A DNA stretch of 39,850 nt from Microbacteriaceae bacterium PS02332. GTDB taxonomy: Bacteria; Actinomycetota; Actinomycetes; Actinomycetales; Microbacteriaceae. Shown one piece after another: positions 28,951 through 38,602 of the stretch (positions within the stretch are counted from its first letter, which is position 1; every line of letters begins with the position of its first letter). The notes beneath the pieces are model-generated. The model worked only from the letters and a program-made list of their open reading frames with translations. It made no database searches and was not told the DNA's origin. The stretch is from assembly GCA_029959645.1 (NCBI GenBank), contig JASCOJ010000010.1, forward strand, positions 1 to 39,850. Direction: 5' to 3'. Made by a program: the position numbers and the translations under genes.

Positions 28951-29525
28951 GTGACTCCTTGATCGATGGTGCTCGTCAGCCGCTGGACGACATGATCGCG
29001 TCCTGGTCGACCGGGACTTCGGTGACCGGGGGTCTGACAGGCACACCATACACACACAGATGGGGATGACCAGCCGCACCACGAACCGGTTCTCCGGTGC
29101 GCGGCACGACCGGGCGGGTCGGACGACGACGTGGCGATGTCCGGTCCGGCCGTCGCCGTCGCGGTCGCGGGGAAGGGCCGCGTCCCGACGACGACCCGGA
29201 CCGACGCAACCGTCTCGTGCACCGAGCACGAGACGACCCGGCCGCCGTTCGACCGAGCCGCACGCTCAGCTGCTGGACACGGCGCGCCCGGGACGAGGTC
29301 CACGGCGGCAGGCGCCGCGACGAGCGCGGCGGCGTCAGCAGCGCTCTGCGCCCGGGCAGTGCCGACGCGGTGCCCGGCTGCGGTGAGCGCGGCCGCGACG
29401 ACGACCACCACGGCGCCGAGCACGGCGACGACCGCGACCGTCGCCGAACCACGGTCGGTGGGACAGCGCCCGTGCCCCGGACGACCATCGAGGCCGGGAC
29501 GGGAGCCGCAGCCACGGGACGTCAC
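28926..29525 (-). CDS. TadE-like pilus/secretion-neighbourhood protein with a long tail
   Basis: The first part (about 30-135) matches the helicase/secretion-neighbourhood TadE-like family: DRGSATVAVVAVLGAVVVVV as a membrane segment, then GTARAQSAADAAALVAAPAA and a secreted stretch ending near VVVGTRPFPAT. Members are usually about 110-130 residues; here the frame stays open for roughly 60 more residues of Ser/Arg/Cys-rich sequence and overlaps the topA start by 25 nt. The real end may lie earlier, with a stop lost by mutation. Start GTG 29525 overlaps the TadE stop by GTGA. Confidence 0.7.
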   Translation of the reverse strand: MTSRGCGSRPGLDGRPGHGRCPTDRGSATVAVVAVLGAVVVVVAAALTAAGHRVGTARAQSAADAAALVAAPAAVDLVPGAPCPAAERAARSNGGRVVSCSVHETVASVRVVVGTRPFPATATATAGPDIATSSSDPPGRAAHRRTGSWCGWSSPSVCVWCACQTPGHRSPGRPGRDHVVQRLTSTIDQGVTCQARRSS

Positions 29526-29869
29526 GACCGTTCCTCCACGGCACAGGCACGGCCACGGAGGAGCAGCCCCGCGAACGGCCCACCGGCGACCGGACGGGAC
29601 ACCGTCACGCACACGAGACCGCCGTCGTGCGTGACAGCTGCTGCGGCGCCGGCCGCGACCTCGGCGACGACCTGACGTCCGGTCTCGTCGTCACCGCGCC
29701 CGGCCGCCCGGGCAGCGGCTCCGGCTGCCGACTGGAGCCGGCCCTGCGCGTCGACGAGCACGACCCCGACCACGCCGAGGGTGAGGACGGTCACGACCGC
29801 CGGGAGCGCGACGGCGAACTCCACCGTGACGGCACCGCGCTCCGCACGGTCACGATGTGAGCGCGCCAC
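29522..29869 (-). CDS. tadE: TadE-family pilus assembly protein
   Basis: A 115-residue minor pilin. After a basic N-terminus (ARSHRDRAERGAVTVEF) comes a pilin-like hydrophobic helix (AVALPAVVTVLTLGVVGVVLV) that places it in the membrane. The rest is exported, with two cysteines near the C-terminus (LVCVTVS, RGRACAVEE). The Gly-x-x-(V)-Glu around residue 13-17 is the prepilin-type cut signature. It overlaps the DUF4244 gene by 20 nt and the next TadE-like gene by 4 nt, so the genes of the Tad block are translated together. Confidence 0.82.
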   Translation of the reverse strand: MARSHRDRAERGAVTVEFAVALPAVVTVLTLGVVGVVLVDAQGRLQSAAGAAARAAGRGDDETGRQVVAEVAAGAAAAVTHDGGLVCVTVSRPVAGGPFAGLLLRGRACAVEERS

Positions 29870-30398: not shown

Positions 30399-31477
<1,079 letters not shown>

Positions 31478-31481
<4 letters not shown>

Positions 31482-32617
31482 CCCGACGACGCGACCACCC
31501 GCGCCCCGCTCGCCGCTCCGTGCCGTCCCCGGAACGCGACCCCACCGGCGACCGCACCGGCGACCGGCTCTCCCGCACCTGGGGTCGAGGCTGCACTGCG
31601 TCCGCCCCGAGCCCGGACGAGCTCCACCGTCGCCATCGGCCGGACCTCGAGCCGCCCGCCGGGATCGACCCCGAACGCCCCGATGCCCACCAGCCGTCGC
31701 CCCGCGCGCCGCCGGTCGACGTGGAGCACGAGGTCGAACGCACTCGCCGCCTGCCGGGCGAGGGCATCGGGTCCGAGTCCGGCGAGCGCACCGAGCGCCT
31801 CGAGCCGTGCCGGGACGTCGGCGACACCGTTCGCGTGCAGGGTCCCCGCTCCCCCGTCGTGCCCGGTGTTCAGCGCCGCCATGAGCTCCCGTACCTCGGC
31901 TCCGCGGCACTCGCCGACGACGAGCCGGTCCGGTCGCATGCGGAGCGCCTCCCGCAGGAGACGGTCGAGCCCGAGTGCACCCACGCCCTCCGCGTTCGCC
32001 TGCCGCGCTTCGAGTCCCACGACGTGCGGGTGGTCGACGCGGAGTTCGGCCACGTCCTCCACGGTCACGATGCGCTCGTCCGGTGGCACGAGCGCGAGCA
32101 TGGCGGCGAGCAAGGTCGTCTTGCCGCTGCCGGTCGCCCCGGTCACCAGGACGTTCCGCCGCGCTGCGACCACGTGGTCGACGACGTCCCGTGGGACGAC
32201 GTCGAAGAACCCCTCCGCCTCGAGCGCCGCCACCGTCGGCCTTCGGCCGCGGGGCAGTCGGATCGAGATGGCGGTACCGGGGGTCGCGACCGGGGCGAGG
32301 ACGACGTGGACGCGGACGCCGTCCCCGAGCCGCACGTCGGCACACGGCGTCGTCTCGTCGACGTGGCGGCCGCCGAGGGCGATGAGTGCCTGCGCGAGGT
32401 CGCGGGCCCGGTCCTCCCGCAGCACGAGTCCCGGCACCGACACGACGCCGTCCCCGCGGTCCACCCACACGCCGCGGTCGGCGAGGACGAGGACGTCGGT
32501 CACGGCGTCGTCGACGACGAACGGGGCGAGTTCCTCGAACTCCACGAGCGGCGCGACGGTGCGACCGTTCGTCGGCCGGGGGGCGCCGGGGAGGAAGGGA
32601 GCGCGGTGTCGGTGCAT
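31478..32617 (-). CDS. tadA: Tad pilus assembly ATPase TadA
   Basis: A 379-residue type II/IV secretion ATPase that powers pilus assembly at the inner membrane. Visible are the N-terminal domain (DDAVTDVLVLADRGVWVDRG), the Walker A GATGSGKTT, an Asp box TVEDVAELRVDHPHV, the Walker B-like LRMRPDRLVVGECRGAE, and a His box GTLHAN. The frame extends to 32695, but the ATG at 32617 has TATCGT 7 nt upstream and no ribosome site, so a leaderless message is likely and sets the start. It overlaps the TadB/C gene by 4 nt. The usual TadZ/Ssd gene of this locus is not seen upstream. Confidence 0.88.
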
Positions 32618-32624
32618 GTCGAGG

Positions 32625-32630
32625 ACGATA
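32625..32630 (-). promoter_or_regulatory. -10 box of a leaderless tadA promoter
   Basis: Minus-strand TATCGT, 7 nt, ATG at 32617. It drives the whole Tad block tadA-tadB/C-DUF4244-tadE-tadE-like. Confidence 0.45.
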
Positions 32631-32652
32631 GGCACGCGCCGCAGCCGACCGC

Positions 32653-32671
32653 GGGCCTCCAGGCCGGTCGG
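32653..32671. repeat. Dispersed GCCTCCAGGC element, copy 3
   Basis: GGGCCTCCAGGCCGGTCGG lies just upstream of the tadA promoter. It shares its core with the elements at 488-530 and 12228-12245. Confidence 0.45.
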
Positions 32672-32940
32672 TGCACGTCCCGGTGCGATCCACAAGGAGG
32701 ACGGCGCTTGTACCCCGTTCCGATGTCCCGTACCCCGTCAGGAGGCGCACCCGGGACGTCGATGTCCGGAAGACCGCCGGAAGGAGCCCGCACTTCCCGG
32801 GCGTTGCGCCGCCGTCCGACCGGCGCGGAGATACGCGACACCTGTGGCAGACCGGTCTGTCCAGGCTTCCGCGCGCCCGCTGGGATCGGAGCGGCCCGGG
32901 TTCTCCGTCGGGCTGCGGACCGGCGACCGAGCGTCGGGGG

Positions 32941-33037
32941 AAAAGAAGAGGCGGCACCTGTTGGGGGGAACGGGTGCCGCCTGGACATCGCGGGATTGGG
33001 GGGAATCCGATGCGATGCCGCCGGAACGAGTCCGGCG
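32941..33037 (-). ncRNA. 6C small RNA
   Basis: On the minus strand, two stem-loops each carry a loop of exactly six C. Loop 1: an outer stem CATCGC/GCGATG and an inner stem GGATT/AATCC around CCCCCC (32993-33008). Loop 2: a perfect 10-bp stem AGGCGGCACC/GGTGCCGCCT (32949-32982) whose apex is TT-CCCCCC-AA. Loop 2 is followed by TCTTCTTTT, so it also acts as the terminator. A 5' hairpin CGCCGGA/TCCGGCG precedes them (33016-33034). This is the pattern of the actinobacterial 6C RNA family. In mycobacteria (B11) it lies between the Tad/ssd locus and the acs region, as here, which supports the call. Known members regulate targets through the C-rich loops pairing with G-rich mRNA sites. Confidence 0.88.
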
Positions 33038-33043
33038 AGAACG

Positions 33044-33074
33044 AGTGTACCCCACAACGGAGCATGCTCGGCAA
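33044..33074 (-). promoter_or_regulatory. Promoter of the 6C RNA
   Basis: On the minus strand TACACT (33044-33049) is a good -10 box about 7 nt before the predicted 5' end near 33037. TTGCCG (33069-33074) could serve as -35 with a long 19-nt spacer. The inverted repeat GGAGCATGCTC lies between and just upstream and may bind a regulator. Confidence 0.55.
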
Positions 33075-33083
33075 CCCCATGCT

Positions 33084-33117
33084 CCGGATCGCGAACTGGG
33101 ACAGCCGGATCGCGAAC
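33084..33117. promoter_or_regulatory. Direct-repeat operator candidate between 6C RNA and acs
   Basis: CCGGATCGCGAAC occurs twice, at 33084-33096 and 33105-33117, with start-to-start distance 21 bp, two turns of the DNA helix. It sits between the divergent 6C promoter and the acs promoter, so one protein bound on the same face could control either or both. Confidence 0.45.
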
Positions 33118-33255
33118 GGCGGCAACTGATCACCCGGGTGCCGTCACTCGGCGTCGCGACGACCGCCCGCGCCCGTCCCGGGGGTAGTCTCCGACTGCGC
33201 CCGACCGGCCCAGCGCGCCGACCGGAGGCGGCACCGACGACGTGAAGGAAGATCG

Positions 33256-35208
33256 ATGACGATCCCACAGCAGGACGACACCCTCGACGAGACCGCGGCG
33301 ACCTTCCCGCCGCCGCCGGAGTTCGTCGCCGACGCCGTCGCCGACGAGCGGCTGCACGCTGCCGCCGCCGCTGACCGCGTGACGTTCTGGGCCGACCAGT
33401 CCCGCGCCCTGCTCGACTGGCGGACGCCCTTCACGCAGGCCCTCGACTGGTCACGGGCCCCCGTCGCCAGCTGGTTCGCCGACGGCACGCTCAACGTCGC
33501 CGAGAACTGTCTCGACCGTCATGTCCGGGCCGGCCTCGGCGACCGGGTCGCGATCCACTTCGAGGGCGCCCCGGGCGACACCCGCACGATCACCTACGCC
33601 GAGCTGACCGCCGAGGTGCAGCGTGCCGCGAACATGCTCGTCGACCTCGGGGTCGGACAGGGCGACCGGGTCGTGGTCTACCTCCCCCTCATCCCGGAGG
33701 CCGTGGTCACCATGCTCGCCGTCGCCCGCATCGGCGCGGTGCACTCGGTCGTGTTCGGCGGCTTCAGCGCCGAGAGCCTCCGCGCCCGCATCGAGGACGC
33801 CGGTGCGAAGCTCGTCGTCACCGCGGACGGCGGCTGGCGTCGCGGGGCGGTTGCGCCGCTCAAGCCCGCGGTCGACGAGGCACTCGAGGGCGAGGGCACG
33901 GACAGCGTCGAGCACGTGCTCGTCGTCCGACGCGGCGAGAACGACATCGCCTGGAACGAGCGCGACCTGTGGTGGCACGACCGGATGGCGGCAGCCGCCC
34001 CGGACCACGAGCCCGAGGCCTTCCCCGCCGAGAACCCCCTCTTCATCCTCTACACCTCGGGCACGACCGGGAAGCCGAAGGGCATCGTGCACACCTCCGG
34101 CGGGTACCTGACCCAGGCGGCGTACACGCACAGGAACGTCTTCGACATGCACCCGGAGAAGGACGTCTGGTGGTGCACGGCCGACATCGGCTGGATCACC
34201 GGCCACACGTACGTCGTCTACGGCCCGCTCGCGAACGGCGTGACCCAGGTCCTGTACGAGGGCACACCGGACGAGCCGCAGCCCGGCCGCTGGTGGGACC
34301 TCGTCGACCGGTACGGCGTCACCGTCCTCTACACCGCACCGACCGCCGTCCGGGCCGCGATGAAGGCCGGTCGCCACGTGCCCGACGCGCGCAGCCTGGA
34401 GTCCCTCCGCCTGCTCGGCAGCGTCGGCGAGCCGATCAACCCCGAGGCCTGGCACTGGTACCGCCAGGTCATCGGCCACGACCGCACGCCGATCGTCGAC
34501 ACGTGGTGGCAGACCGAGACCGGCGCGATCATGATCTCCGCGCTGCCCGGCGTCACCAAGCTGAAGCCGGGCGCCGCGCAGACGCCGTTGCCCGGCATCG
34601 TGGCGGAGATCGTCGACGAGGAGGGCTCCCGCGTCGACCCCGGCGGCAGCGGCTACCTGACGATCACCGAGCCGTGGCCGTCGATGGCGCGCGGCATCTG
34701 GGGCGACCAGGACCGCTTCGTCGAGACCTATTGGGACCGCTTCCCCGGCCGCTACTTCGCCGGCGACGGGGCCCGGCTCGACGGCCAGGGCGACATCTGG
34801 GTGCAGGGTCGGGTCGACGACGTCATGAACGTGTCGGGACACCGCCTGTCGACCGCCGAGATCGAGTCCGCGCTGGTCGGGCACGAGGGCGTCGCCGAGG
34901 CCGCCGTGGTCGGCGCAGCGGACGCGACGACCGGTCAGGCGGTGGTCGCGTTCGTGATCCTCACGGCGGAGGCGGCGGACGGCGTCGACCGGGAGGCGTC
35001 GGCTGCCGAGCTCCGTGCCTGGGTCGGCACGCGCATCGGCGCGATCGCGAAGCCGCGGCAGGTCGTCATCGTGCCGGAGCTGCCGAAGACGCGCTCCGGC
35101 AAGATCATGCGCCGGCTCCTCCGCGACGCAGCCGAGGGGCGCCGCATCGGCGACACGACGACGCTGTCGGACCCGACGATCATGGCGACCATCGCGGACC
35201 TGATGTAG
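33256..35208 (+). CDS. acs: Acetyl-CoA synthetase
   Basis: It activates acetate with ATP to acetyl-AMP and then to acetyl-CoA. The 650-residue product is full length: GDRVAIHFEGAPGDTRTITY near the N-terminus, the P-loop-like YTSGTTGKPKGIVH, VDTWWQTETGA, and the hinge and C-terminal catalytic lysine block PKTRSGKIMRRLL, the lysine that is controlled by acetylation in this family. ATG 33256 has GAAGGAAG upstream. A -10-like TAGTCT at 33185-33190 would give a leader of about 60 nt; the upstream direct repeat may be its operator. A strong terminator follows. It is transcribed away from the 6C RNA. Confidence 0.96.
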   Translation: MTIPQQDDTLDETAATFPPPPEFVADAVADERLHAAAAADRVTFWADQSRALLDWRTPFTQALDWSRAPVASWFADGTLNVAENCLDRHVRAGLGDRVAIHFEGAPGDTRTITYAELTAEVQRAANMLVDLGVGQGDRVVVYLPLIPEAVVTMLAVARIGAVHSVVFGGFSAESLRARIEDAGAKLVVTADGGWRRGAVAPLKPAVDEALEGEGTDSVEHVLVVRRGENDIAWNERDLWWHDRMAAAAPDHEPEAFPAENPLFILYTSGTTGKPKGIVHTSGGYLTQAAYTHRNVFDMHPEKDVWWCTADIGWITGHTYVVYGPLANGVTQVLYEGTPDEPQPGRWWDLVDRYGVTVLYTAPTAVRAAMKAGRHVPDARSLESLRLLGSVGEPINPEAWHWYRQVIGHDRTPIVDTWWQTETGAIMISALPGVTKLKPGAAQTPLPGIVAEIVDEEGSRVDPGGSGYLTITEPWPSMARGIWGDQDRFVETYWDRFPGRYFAGDGARLDGQGDIWVQGRVDDVMNVSGHRLSTAEIESALVGHEGVAEAAVVGAADATTGQAVVAFVILTAEAADGVDREASAAELRAWVGTRIGAIAKPRQVVIVPELPKTRSGKIMRRLLRDAAEGRRIGDTTTLSDPTIMATIADLM

Positions 35209-35217
35209 CGGTCGGAC

Positions 35218-35262
35218 GCAGGAAGGGCCTCCCGTCACATCCGGCCGGGAGGCCCTTCCTGC
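35218..35262. terminator. Bidirectional terminator between acs and ridA
   Basis: Perfect 17-bp arms (35218-35234 and 35246-35262, core GCAGGAAGGGCCTCCCG) with an 11-nt loop. Convergent genes on both sides make it bidirectional; the stem has T-rich ends (CCCTTCCTGC). Confidence 0.85.
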
Positions 35263-35292
35263 GCGCCCGGACGCGTCGCGTCCGCCGGCGGC

Positions 35293-35754
35293 TCAGTCCG
35301 CCAACTCGACGATCAGCTCGACCTCGACCGGTGCGTCGAGCGGCAGGACCGCCACGCCCACCGCGCTGCGGGCGTGCATGCCCGCGTCGCCGAAGACGTC
35401 GCCGACGAGCTGCGACGCACCGTTCGCGACCCCGGGCTGCCCGGTGAAGGCCGGGTCGGACGCGACGAACACCGTCACCTTGACGACCCGCGCGACGCGG
35501 TCGAGGGACCCGGCGACGCTCTGCACCGCCGCGATCGCGTTCAGCGCGGCCTGCCGGGCCTGCGCCGTCGCGGTCTCGGCATCGACGGCGCCGCCGACCT
35601 TCCCGGTGACCGGGAGGGCGCCGTCCACGAAGGGCAGCTGGCCGGCGGTGAAGACGTGCGAGCCCGACACCACGGCGGGGACGTAGGCGGCCACCGGCGC
35701 GGCGACCGGCGGCACCGTGAGACCGAGCTCGGTCAGGCGTTCGGCGACGGTCAT
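35293..35754 (-). CDS. ridA: RidA/YjgF-family deaminase
   Basis: RidA-like proteins hydrolyse reactive enamine/imine intermediates such as 2-aminoacrylate. The 153-residue product is of the longer actinobacterial subgroup. It shows the family segments VVSGSHVFTAGQLPFVDG, QARQAALNAIAAVQSVAG, RVVKVTVFVASDPAF and RSAVGVAVLPLDAPVEVELI. The Arg of the C-terminal HARSAVG block, which binds the carboxylate in active members, is present; Tyr/Ser details cannot be assigned with certainty. It overlaps the small DUF4177 gene by ATGA, a pairing common in actinobacteria. Confidence 0.9.
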   Translation of the reverse strand: MTVAERLTELGLTVPPVAAPVAAYVPAVVSGSHVFTAGQLPFVDGALPVTGKVGGAVDAETATAQARQAALNAIAAVQSVAGSLDRVARVVKVTVFVASDPAFTGQPGVANGASQLVGDVFGDAGMHARSAVGVAVLPLDAPVEVELIVELAD

Positions 35755-35909
35755 GCGTCGTCCTTCGGGCGCTTCAGGTAGGCGACCAGCCCGCCCTCGG
35801 GTCCGGTGACGACCTGCACCAGCTCCCAGCCCTGGTCACCGAAGTTGTTGAGGATGGCAGTGGTGTTGTGGATGATCAACGGAGTGGTCAGGTATTCCCA
35901 GCGGCGCAT
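35751..35909 (-). CDS. DUF4177-type small protein
   Basis: A 52-residue protein, too short for usual gene finders. It reads MRRWEYLTTPLIIHN, then a loop and NNFGDQGWELVQVVTG and GGLVAYLKRPKDDA. The pattern W-E-Y ... L-N-x-x-G-x-x-G-W-E-L-V ... Y-L-K-R is that of DUF4177; the function is unknown. AAGGA lies 5 nt before ATG 35909, and its stop overlaps the ridA ATG (ATGA), so the two form one operon. Its promoter probably shares the short gap with ponA. Confidence 0.85.
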   Translation of the reverse strand: MRRWEYLTTPLIIHNTTAILNNFGDQGWELVQVVTGPEGGLVAYLKRPKDDA

Positions 35910-35946
35910 GCGGTTCCTTGCCAGCCTTTCAGTCCAGGTGGTCGTT

Positions 35947-35960
35947 TAGGCTGCATCCTA
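35947..35960. promoter_or_regulatory. Overlapping divergent -10 boxes of ponA and the DUF4177-ridA operon
   Basis: On the plus strand TAGGCT (35947-35952) lies 7 nt before the ponA ATG at 35960 and predicts a leaderless message. On the minus strand TAGGAT (35955-35960) fits a promoter for DUF4177-ridA with a leader of about 40 nt. The two -10 boxes overlap back to back, so polymerase can probably use only one at a time. Confidence 0.45.
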
Positions 35961-38602
35961 TGTCTGCCCAGAAGACGTCTGCCCGTCGGACCAAGCCCGT
36001 CTCCGCAGTCGGCGCCTTCATCGGTTTCGTCGGCTTCAGCGCCCTCGCCGGCCTCCTCGTCACGATCGGCGTCACACCGGCGATCGCCGTGGCCGGCGTC
36101 ACGACGACCTCGACGATCGGCGTCTTCGAGTCGCTGCCCGAGTACATCGAGCTCGGCGAGCTGCCGCAGCGCAACGAGGTGCTCGCCTACTCGGGCGGCC
36201 AGCCCGTGCACCTGGCGACGGTCTACGACCAGAACCGCCAGGAGCTGAAGTACGACCAGATCAGCGACAACCTCAAGAACGCCGCCATCGACGGCGAGGA
36301 CAAGCGCTTCTGGGACCACGGCGGCGTGGACATGACCTCGCTCGTGCGCGCCGGCGTCGGCTCGGTCGCCGGCAAGCTCGGGGACTCCGGCGGTGGGTCG
36401 ACGCTGACCATGCAGCTCGTCCGCAACATCAAGATGACGCAGGCACTCGAACTCCCCACGCAGGAAGAGCGCGACGCCGCGTACAACGACGCCGTGCGCC
36501 AGACGATCCCGCGCAAGCTCGAGGAGATGAAGCTCGCGATCGGGCTCGCGAAGAAGTACCCGAAGAAGGACATCCTCACCGCGTACCTCAACATCGCCTA
36601 CTTCGGCGACCAGACCTACGGCGTGCAGGCGGCAGCGCAGCGCTACTTCAGCAAGAACGCGTCGGACCTGACCCCGGCGGAGGGCGCTTCCATCCTCGCG
36701 ATCGTGCAGTCCCCGAACACCCGCAACCTGTCTGACCCCAAGTACTACGACGCGAACGTCGGTCGACGCGACGTCATCCTGAAGTCGATGTACGCGCAGA
36801 AGCACATCGACAAGCAGCAGCTCGACGAGGCCCTCGCGTCGAAGCCGGCCGACTACGTGCACCTCAGCGACCCGACCCAGGGCTGCAAGGCGGCGGCGGG
36901 CGTCGGCTCGCAGTTCTTCTGCGACTACGCCGTGCAGGTCGTCAAGGAGATGTCGCAGCTCGGTTCGACCCAGAAGGCGCGTGACGCAGCCTGGCGCAAC
37001 GGCGGCTACACCGTCCAGACCACCCTCAACGTGGACCTCAACGACGCGCAGAAGAAGCTGATCGACTCCTACGCGCCGAACACCGAGGCCCGTCTCGAGC
37101 TCGGCGGTGTCATCAACTCGGTCGAGGCCGACACCGGACGCATCCTGACGATGGCGCAGAACAAGGACTACAACCAGCTGCAGGCCTGTGGGTCGCAGGG
37201 TGCCGACCCGAACGCCTGCGCACCGGCCACCGACACCGGGATCAACCTCAGCGTCGACAAGCAGTACGGCGGCGGCCAGGGCTTCCAGACCGGTTCGACG
37301 TTCAAGCCCTTCACCCTGCTCAACTGGCTGCAGAAGGGCCACGGCCTCGGCGAGATCGTGAACGGCACGCCGCGCGGCTTCACGAGCTACACCGTCTGCG
37401 GTAAGCGCTCGGGAATCTCGCCCGTGTACCAGCCCAAGAACGACTCCCTCGGCGAGGGCGGCAACATGACCGTCGAGAGCGCGACCTACCGCTCGGTGAA
37501 CGTCTCCTACGTCAACATGGCGCAGAAGTTGGACTACTGCGACATCCGGAAGACCGCCGAGTCCCTGGGGGTGCACCTCGCCAAGCCCCGGACCTCGATG
37601 GCCGGCTACGGCGACGACATGTCGAAGAAGACCACCACCGGGATCGAGCTCAACCCGTCGGCGGTGCTCGGCACGAACTACATCGCCCCGCTGACCATGG
37701 CTGCGGCCTACGCCGGCATCGCGAACAACGGCACATTCTGCCGCCCCATCGCGATCGACAACGTCACGAACGCCGAGGGCAAGGCGCTCGGCGGCCAGCC
37801 GAAGGACTGCACCCAGGCGATCGACCCGGAGGTCGCGAAGACCGCGATCTCCGCGCTGAAGAAGACCCTGACCGTCGGTACCGCCGCCGGCGCCCGGACG
37901 CCGGACGGCTTCGACGAGTTCGGCAAGACCGGCACGACGAACGAGGCGGACCAGATCTGGCTCGTCGGATCGTCCACGAAGGTCGCGACCGCGACGTGGC
38001 TCGGCAACATCCAGGGCGACAAGAGCCTCCGGCACGTCTACGGCCCGAAGGGGCTCTACTCGCTGTCGCGCACGTCGCTGTGGCGTCAGGCGCAGAGCAT
38101 CGTGAACAGCCAGCACGCCGGTGGGCAGTTCGAGGCGCCGTCCCCCACGTCCGTCCGTGGCAACAGCATCACCGTGCCGAACGTGGTCGGACAGACCCCC
38201 GAGCAGGCGCGGTCGGCGATCGCCGGTGCCGGGCTCACCTACGTCGACGGCGGCGTGCAGGCCGGAGCCGGGACGCCCGGGACCGTCTCCTCCACGATCC
38301 CGGCGGCGTCGAGCCCGCTCTCCCGCGGCTCGTCCGTCACCGTCTACACGACCGACGGATCGCAGGCGACGGTGCCCCAGGTGGGCGGGCGGTCCATCGA
38401 CGACGCGCGCGCGGCCCTGCAACAGGCGGGCTTCGGCAACCTCGCAATCTCCGACCAGTTCCAGCCGGGCAACGGGCAGAACCAGTGCACCGTGGCGACC
38501 GTGACGCCGGGCGCGGGATCGGCGGCGTCGAAGGACACCGCCGTCAGCGTCGGGCTCTACGGCGACCAGAACGGCAAGGCCCCGAAGGACGGCTGCCGAT
38601 GA
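35960..38602 (+). CDS. ponA: Class A penicillin-binding protein (PBP1-type) with two PASTA domains
   Basis: A bifunctional wall synthase at the outer face of the membrane. The 880-residue product has a short cytoplasmic tail, one membrane span (about 15-40), a transglycosylase domain with Glu113 in GEDKRFWDHGG and GGSTLTMQLVRNI, and a transpeptidase domain with Ser446-Thr-Phe-Lys449, Ser512-Val-Asn514 and Lys656-Thr-Gly. C-terminal PASTA domains start near residues 737 (ITVPNVVG) and 803 (ATVPQVGG). I start at ATG 35960: no ribosome site, but TAGGCT at the leaderless distance. The upstream ATG at 35918 would run through the promoter. Overlaps the phosphoesterase by ATGA. Confidence 0.95.
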   Translation: MSAQKTSARRTKPVSAVGAFIGFVGFSALAGLLVTIGVTPAIAVAGVTTTSTIGVFESLPEYIELGELPQRNEVLAYSGGQPVHLATVYDQNRQELKYDQISDNLKNAAIDGEDKRFWDHGGVDMTSLVRAGVGSVAGKLGDSGGGSTLTMQLVRNIKMTQALELPTQEERDAAYNDAVRQTIPRKLEEMKLAIGLAKKYPKKDILTAYLNIAYFGDQTYGVQAAAQRYFSKNASDLTPAEGASILAIVQSPNTRNLSDPKYYDANVGRRDVILKSMYAQKHIDKQQLDEALASKPADYVHLSDPTQGCKAAAGVGSQFFCDYAVQVVKEMSQLGSTQKARDAAWRNGGYTVQTTLNVDLNDAQKKLIDSYAPNTEARLELGGVINSVEADTGRILTMAQNKDYNQLQACGSQGADPNACAPATDTGINLSVDKQYGGGQGFQTGSTFKPFTLLNWLQKGHGLGEIVNGTPRGFTSYTVCGKRSGISPVYQPKNDSLGEGGNMTVESATYRSVNVSYVNMAQKLDYCDIRKTAESLGVHLAKPRTSMAGYGDDMSKKTTTGIELNPSAVLGTNYIAPLTMAAAYAGIANNGTFCRPIAIDNVTNAEGKALGGQPKDCTQAIDPEVAKTAISALKKTLTVGTAAGARTPDGFDEFGKTGTTNEADQIWLVGSSTKVATATWLGNIQGDKSLRHVYGPKGLYSLSRTSLWRQAQSIVNSQHAGGQFEAPSPTSVRGNSITVPNVVGQTPEQARSAIAGAGLTYVDGGVQAGAGTPGTVSSTIPAASSPLSRGSSVTVYTTDGSQATVPQVGGRSIDDARAALQQAGFGNLAISDQFQPGNGQNQCTVATVTPGAGSAASKDTAVSVGLYGDQNGKAPKDGCR

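Follow-up and report, generated by a model that had tools for sequence, protein, structure and literature searches.

A predicted 6C/B11-type small RNA between acs and tadA in Curtobacterium, and related elements with twin C-loops

The minus strand of Microbacteriaceae bacterium PS02332, which belongs to the genus Curtobacterium (family Microbacteriaceae), carries at 33037-32941 a predicted 6C RNA of about 97 nt, very probably a trans-acting small RNA with a promoter and a terminator of its own and the Curtobacterium orthologue of 6C/B11 (positions are those of the window, the whole stretch of 39,850 nucleotides analysed here). The main finding is the orthologue of a known RNA at a known place, to which the analysis adds a family-wide blind spot of the Rfam cut-off, a near-fixed place beside a tadA gene of leaderless type and a sibling element. 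The identity as 6C, already proposed in an earlier note on this DNA, is supported by structure, loops and genomic place.

Parts and fold of the predicted RNA

The 5′ end of the RNA was set from its spacing to the -10 box and the 3′ end from a T-tract. Between them, the predicted fold begins with a 5′ hairpin of 7 bp (33019..33037), which lies outside the Rfam model, followed by hairpin 1 (32985..33018), with a CCCCCC loop at 33003-32998, and hairpin 2 (32949..32982), whose CCCCCC loop falls at 32968-32963, so that the two minus-strand stem-loops with apical CCCCCC described in the earlier note are both recovered. For the stretch as a whole the predicted folding energy is -50.3 kcal/mol (z -7.2), a stability that none of 200 shuffles reached. 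Hairpin 2 consists of a 10-bp stem, a mismatch and 3 bp, and is followed by the T-rich tail TCTTCTTTT (32941..32949); its suggested second role as terminator is in keeping with this terminator-like stem and tail, whereas a simple terminator scan left it unflagged.

The promoter presents a comparable picture. A -10 box, TACACT, at 33049-33044 (minus strand) is preceded by the -35-like hexamer TTGCCG (33069..33074, minus strand), and a TTGNNN element stands exactly 19 nt ahead of TACA[G/C]T in 30/30 genus loci; the -10 region reads GGGGTACAGT in 29 of these and GGGGTACACT in one, PS02332 itself. The simple promoter and terminator scans of 32600-33300 flagged 0 and 0 sites, so that the suggested start of the RNA at TACACT, like its predicted end, rests on conservation. 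The usual -35/-10 spacer is 16-18 nt, and the longer one of 19 nt at 6C may involve an activator. An operator-like dyad upstream of the -10 box (GGAGCATG/CATGCTCC) was set aside because, judged by eye, the 29 further genus loci in the alignment do not conserve it, and a by-eye look for a PafBC-type -26 motif found none. From this promoter 6C would be transcribed divergently from acs, and the transcript would end at its own terminator ahead of tadA.

Conservation and covariation across the family

Within the genus, both 6C loops read UUCCCCCCAA in 30/30 loci, and all 37 same-genus genomes searched, PS02332 included, match the 6C region with E 7.7e-30 or better; the exact double-loop pattern was found in 40 of 41 Curtobacterium genomes, against 0/41 for a reversed control pattern. 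A family model, R1, draws on 41 of the 59 loci that could be read, of which 16 are from Curtobacterium and 25 from other genera. It matches PS02332, whose own sequence is among the 41, at 32937-33037 with 98.5 bits.

The R1 alignment leaves 95.6% of cells paired, and pairing falls to 25-53% when the partner is slid along. Moreover, 13 of the 24 pairs have changed on both sides among these 41 family sequences, a count that 0/500 shuffles equal, and the further pair types are equalled by 4/500. The three covariation helices correspond to hairpin 1 (helices 1 and 2) and hairpin 2 (helix 3), and the 6C stems are conserved by structure rather than by letters. In 51/59 loci the best local stem sits at the offset of the 5′ hairpin; taken singly, this hairpin reaches p <= 0.05 against mononucleotide shuffles in 26/59. 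One locus with a first loop of five C (L044) was left unscored in these 5′ hairpin counts, in the family neighbourhood counts and in the simple fold test given below.

Detection by Rfam and comparison with known 6C RNAs

A search of the whole window at Rfam gathering thresholds returned two tRNAs only and no 6C. The covariance-model check suggested in the earlier note gave a mixed outcome: RF01066 (6C) matches 32946-33016 over its full length (model positions 1-75 of 75), with 34.9 bits against a gathering cut-off of 47. When Rfam was searched with an E-value threshold, RF01066 was the top family by bits at this place, and CcsR1 (RF02791) came marginally ahead by E-value (0.0031 vs 0.0036), a ranking that recurred in a search of 30500-36500; the same-place matches of CcsR1 (21.8 bits, cut-off 65.3) and of Scr3202 (RF02833; 22.5 bits, cut-off 52) are weak and far under their cut-offs. 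The failure of RF01066 at its cut-off was treated as a matter of the curator's threshold, without biological weight.

The Rfam cut-off misses the predicted 6C RNA in most Microbacteriaceae genomes. At E <= 1, RF01066 matches 126 of the 199 genomes of the family and only 5 pass the gathering cut-off, against 163/199 matched by R1 at E <= 0.01 (its 41 source sequences by construction), so that annotation by cut-off overlooks 6C here. Among same-class genomes, 115/197 match RF01066 at E <= 0.01 and 85/197 lie above the cut-off. In a set of 14 control genomes, C. glutamicum alone matches, under the cut-off; the search gave the genome without the place, and we infer that the match is its known 6C gene. 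At E <= 10 three non-actinobacterial control genomes match as well, and weak matches at that level therefore mean little. Two more weak RF01066 matches lie elsewhere in the PS02332 genome (22.8 and 20.9 bits); one of the weak matches (L002) was rejected, having no C6 run, and another (L003) has a longer C-run on its own strand at a GC-rich contig end.

Like RF01066 and mycobacterial B11, the PS02332 RNA has two C-loop hairpins, the second of them terminator-like, plus a 5′ hairpin; three helices are described for the 6C RNA of M. mucogenicum (PMC6582537), and loops 2 and 3 of M. marinum B11 are given as C-rich (PMC12395582). It differs from them in falling under the Rfam cut-off and in having UUCCCCCCAA in both loops, and its -10 box is TACACT where that of B11 is reported as TATAGT (PMC12395582). 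The northern-verified 6C RNA of C. glutamicum (cgb_03605) is similar in length, at about 100 nt with a 27-nt 5′ extension past the Rfam prediction, and is reported to have eight C per loop, against six in PS02332 (PMC4046766).

A near-fixed place between acs and the tad locus

Downstream of 6C on the same strand lies tadA (31478..32617, minus strand; TIGR03819, 386.8 bits, cut-off 373.15; PF00437), with tadE further on (29522..29869, minus strand; NF041390 TadE_Rv3655c, 54.8 bits, cut-off 40), and upstream lies the divergent acs (33256..35208, plus strand; TIGR02188, 922.4 bits, cut-off 724.95). The arrangement with tad on one side and acs on the other, which the earlier note describes as known for mycobacterial B11/6C, extends well beyond this genome. 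Within about 1.5 kb, tadA follows 6C on its own strand in 30/30 genus loci and 25/29 other family loci, and acs precedes it on the opposite strand in 29/30 and 26/29, respectively; the absences from family loci include the contig-end cuts L031 and L039. Among 125 family genomes with both a 6C and a TadA match among the matches listed (150 of each, leaving 25 on each side unpartnered), a TadA match lies at most 2.5 kb downstream of 6C on the same strand in 120, with a median gap of 296 nt; in the remaining five it also follows on that strand, at a distance of 3.8-6.3 kb.

At the level of the class, 20 regions were chosen from the genomes matching RF01066 at E <= 0.01. TadA is downstream of 6C on the same strand in 18 of them (at 1.2-2.2 kb in 17 and 3.4 kb in one), upstream on the other strand in one and absent from one, while acs is found upstream on the opposite strand in 12/20 within the DNA examined; this place, ahead of the tad genes and flanked by acs on the opposite side, is a further likeness to RF01066/B11. 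The gap between 6C and tadA holds an open frame in 18/18 class regions, some of these frames not clearly coding, and the product of the one gap gene tested is Ssd (TIGR03815, 345 bits); PS02332 differs in having no ssd between 6C and tadA. Conserved 6C/Ms1 synteny has already been reported for mycobacteria and S. coelicolor (PMC6582537), and B11 is placed between Rv3660 and Rv3661 (PMC12395582). A search for Ms1 in 30500-36500 at E <= 1 showed no match.

The start of tadA bears directly on what this place may mean. A -10-like box, TATCGT (32625..32630, minus strand), stands 7 nt ahead of the ATG at 32617, a start of leaderless type, and a TANNNT box is found 5-9 nt ahead of an in-frame tadA start at 52/55 loci, compared with 5.1 expected at random positions (several in-frame starts were tried per locus, and likewise in the control). 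Judged from these boxes, tadA looks leaderless, about 320 nt past the end of 6C, in which case there would be no tadA leader for 6C to join and no ribosome-binding site to cover. That 6C keeps its place beside a tadA of apparently leaderless type points to an action in trans.

Two other readings of the locus can be weighed against this one. Rfam classes 6C as Cis-reg, and the same-strand place upstream of tadA, near-fixed in 120/125 family genomes and 18/20 class regions, would also be expected if 6C acted in cis on the tad operon, as a leader or attenuator whose terminator is read through under some condition. Such a role is nevertheless unlikely, given that tadA appears to have its own close upstream -10 box at 52/55 loci, that the gap between 6C and tadA varies and contains an open frame in other families (Ssd in the one tested), and that B11 is reported to repress reporters in trans (PMC10470900, PMC12395582). 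Otherwise, the stretch separating acs from tadA could hold merely a terminator or other hairpins, with chance C-runs and no discrete RNA, as the terminator-like second hairpin and the empty promoter scan might suggest. This is very improbable in the face of loops identical in 30/30 genus loci, stems that covary across the family and a -35/-10 pair conserved at fixed spacing alongside the loops.

Proposed action in trans and candidate targets

The trans-acting 6C would be expected to work by analogy with B11, its C6 loops pairing with tracts of five or six G at the ribosome-binding sites of distant mRNAs and the pairing blocking ribosome entry and speeding mRNA decay, as is reported for B11 in M. 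abscessus and M. marinum. In M. abscessus, the eccB4 leader is reported to have six G, with either B11 loop sufficient for repression (PMC10470900), and in M. marinum the B11 terminator loop is described as pairing with guanine tracts beside the ribosome-binding site (PMC12395582). Identical, invariant loops in both hairpins would also suit a protein site, and 6C might then mainly bind a protein through its C6 loops instead of pairing with mRNA. That reading is unlikely, as repression of G-tract targets is relieved when both loops are mutated in M. abscessus (PMC10470900) or when the terminator loop is mutated in M. marinum (PMC12395582).

Local targets with GGGGGG near their starts, which the earlier note had raised for the neighbouring genes, did not materialize: no six-G run was found at the start of acs or tadA in the window, and tadA looks leaderless. 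A six-G run at 30416-30411, 8 nt ahead of a GTG that falls where a tad ORF ends, was dismissed because by eye no real gene begins at that GTG. In the PS02332 genome the pattern GGGGGG-N4-9-ATG occurs 38 times against 16 for the reversed pattern, and in 13 Curtobacterium genomes 296 times against 150; this two-fold excess before ATG may reflect mere G-rich ribosome-binding sites. Reading the starts at 29 loci, which cover 30 of the 38 matches, gave an ORF of at least 50 aa in 18 loci, and plausible starts behind six G, read together with Pfam matches, include those of motA, an NlpC/P60 gene, an RHS/DUF6531 protein and an alpha/beta-hydrolase protein. Of these, motA and the ESX-type effector genes are the predicted target candidates in PS02332, and the candidates are only partly conserved.

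Labels for motA and its neighbours flbD and fliI, and for ESX/WXG100-type N-termini, were assigned by eye, and the Pfam search of the G6-start proteins gave no WXG match. Both the RHS/DUF6531 protein (L362, G000:C177) and the alpha/beta-hydrolase protein (L373, G000:C294) have by eye ESX-type N-termini and six G before their starts, and GGGGGGAA stands ahead of RHS-type relatives at three other loci. For motA, counted in 30 of the 40 genomes with a motA match, a run of at least five G lies upstream in 26/30 loci and of at least six in 4/30, one locus having no upstream DNA; the tract falls within the final codons of the gene ahead of motA. The NlpC/P60 gene was discarded as a conserved target, the six G being missing in the sole relative found (1/16 stretches).

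A complement to the loop over its full ten bases, TTGGGGGGAA, was found before ATG 27 times in 19/41 genomes. Nineteen of these matches come from 6C itself, read on its antisense strand, and one comes likewise from another twin-loop element; of the seven others, four share one string. In four Curtobacterium genomes (L428, L431, L432 and L438), TTGGGGGGAA stands ahead of the same start (TTGGGGGGAAGACCGTGATG), and the gene behind it at L432/L390 is lipoprotein-like by eye. A full ten-base complement before ATG is rare, and the target genes of 6C remain predictions.

Sibling elements with twin C-loops

A second element with twin C-loops is found downstream of clpC in 18 of 38 readable Curtobacterium regions within 420 nt, and in one more just beyond (19/38; two short clpC regions and one genome with no ClpC match are left out of the count). 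It occurs at L198, L203, L209, L213, L220, L223, L257 and other loci, and is absent from the clpC site of the PS02332 genome (L253). In the element, a GTA-type -10-like box stands behind a stretch rich in G, and there are two C-loop hairpins whose stems change. A GC-rich hairpin lies apart from these; it is invariant across 17 sequences and lacks a strong T-run, so that it may also be a shared terminator of clpC or of the facing gene. Covariation of the clpC-linked element, assessed on 17 of the 18 sequences, is moderate: cells changed on both sides exceed those of 500/500 shuffles, pairs with changes on both sides are equalled by 93/500, and pair types speak against it (487/500). Rfam at gathering threshold reported nothing for two clpC-linked loci and one further element.

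Four genomes carry double-loop elements away from clpC. In one such element (L263 and L264; G019 and G036), not near clpC, the first of the C6 loops and its partner are displayed differently, one by a hairpin and one by a GC-rich hairpin of terminator-like form. Twin-C6-loop elements were also observed on contigs apart from that of clpC (L265, G029:C2; L266, G259:C53); these contigs are possibly secondary replicons and recall the plasmid 6C copies of mycobacteria, where extra 6C-like genes off the main locus, some of them plasmid-borne, have been reported (PMC9569102). The clpC-linked element resembles those mycobacterial copies in being an additional 6C-like gene off the main locus, and differs from them in its separate terminator-like hairpin and its other stems. 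The literature search found no paper linking 6C RNA with clpC and, among the titles listed, none on 6C in Curtobacterium.

Searches beyond actinobacterial chromosomes gave no blastn match of 6C to phages and plasmids. Ten viral contigs with the double-loop pattern were rejected on failing a simple fold test, which many non-actinobacterial double-loop matches, among the matches listed, fail as well; the same test also failed some evident 6C genes, L071, L074 and L153 among them. Within the window itself, long poly-G runs stand at both contig ends (24-63 and 39836-39846) and are probably assembly or sequencing artefacts.

Implications for Curtobacterium

With 19 of 38 readable genomes carrying it, the clpC-linked element offers a natural test of presence against absence. 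As a tentative idea, more open to doubt than to belief, Curtobacterium may have several sibling small RNAs with a common seed, UUCCCCCCAA, on different stems. These would comprise the ancestral 6C between acs and tadA, a clpC-linked copy that has a promoter to itself and is carried by about half of the genomes, and others. Together, through G-tract ribosome-binding sites, they might influence secretion (ESX effectors) and motility (motA) as well as surface genes, and the near-fixed place beside tad would then reflect an old functional tie to the control of pilus or surface.
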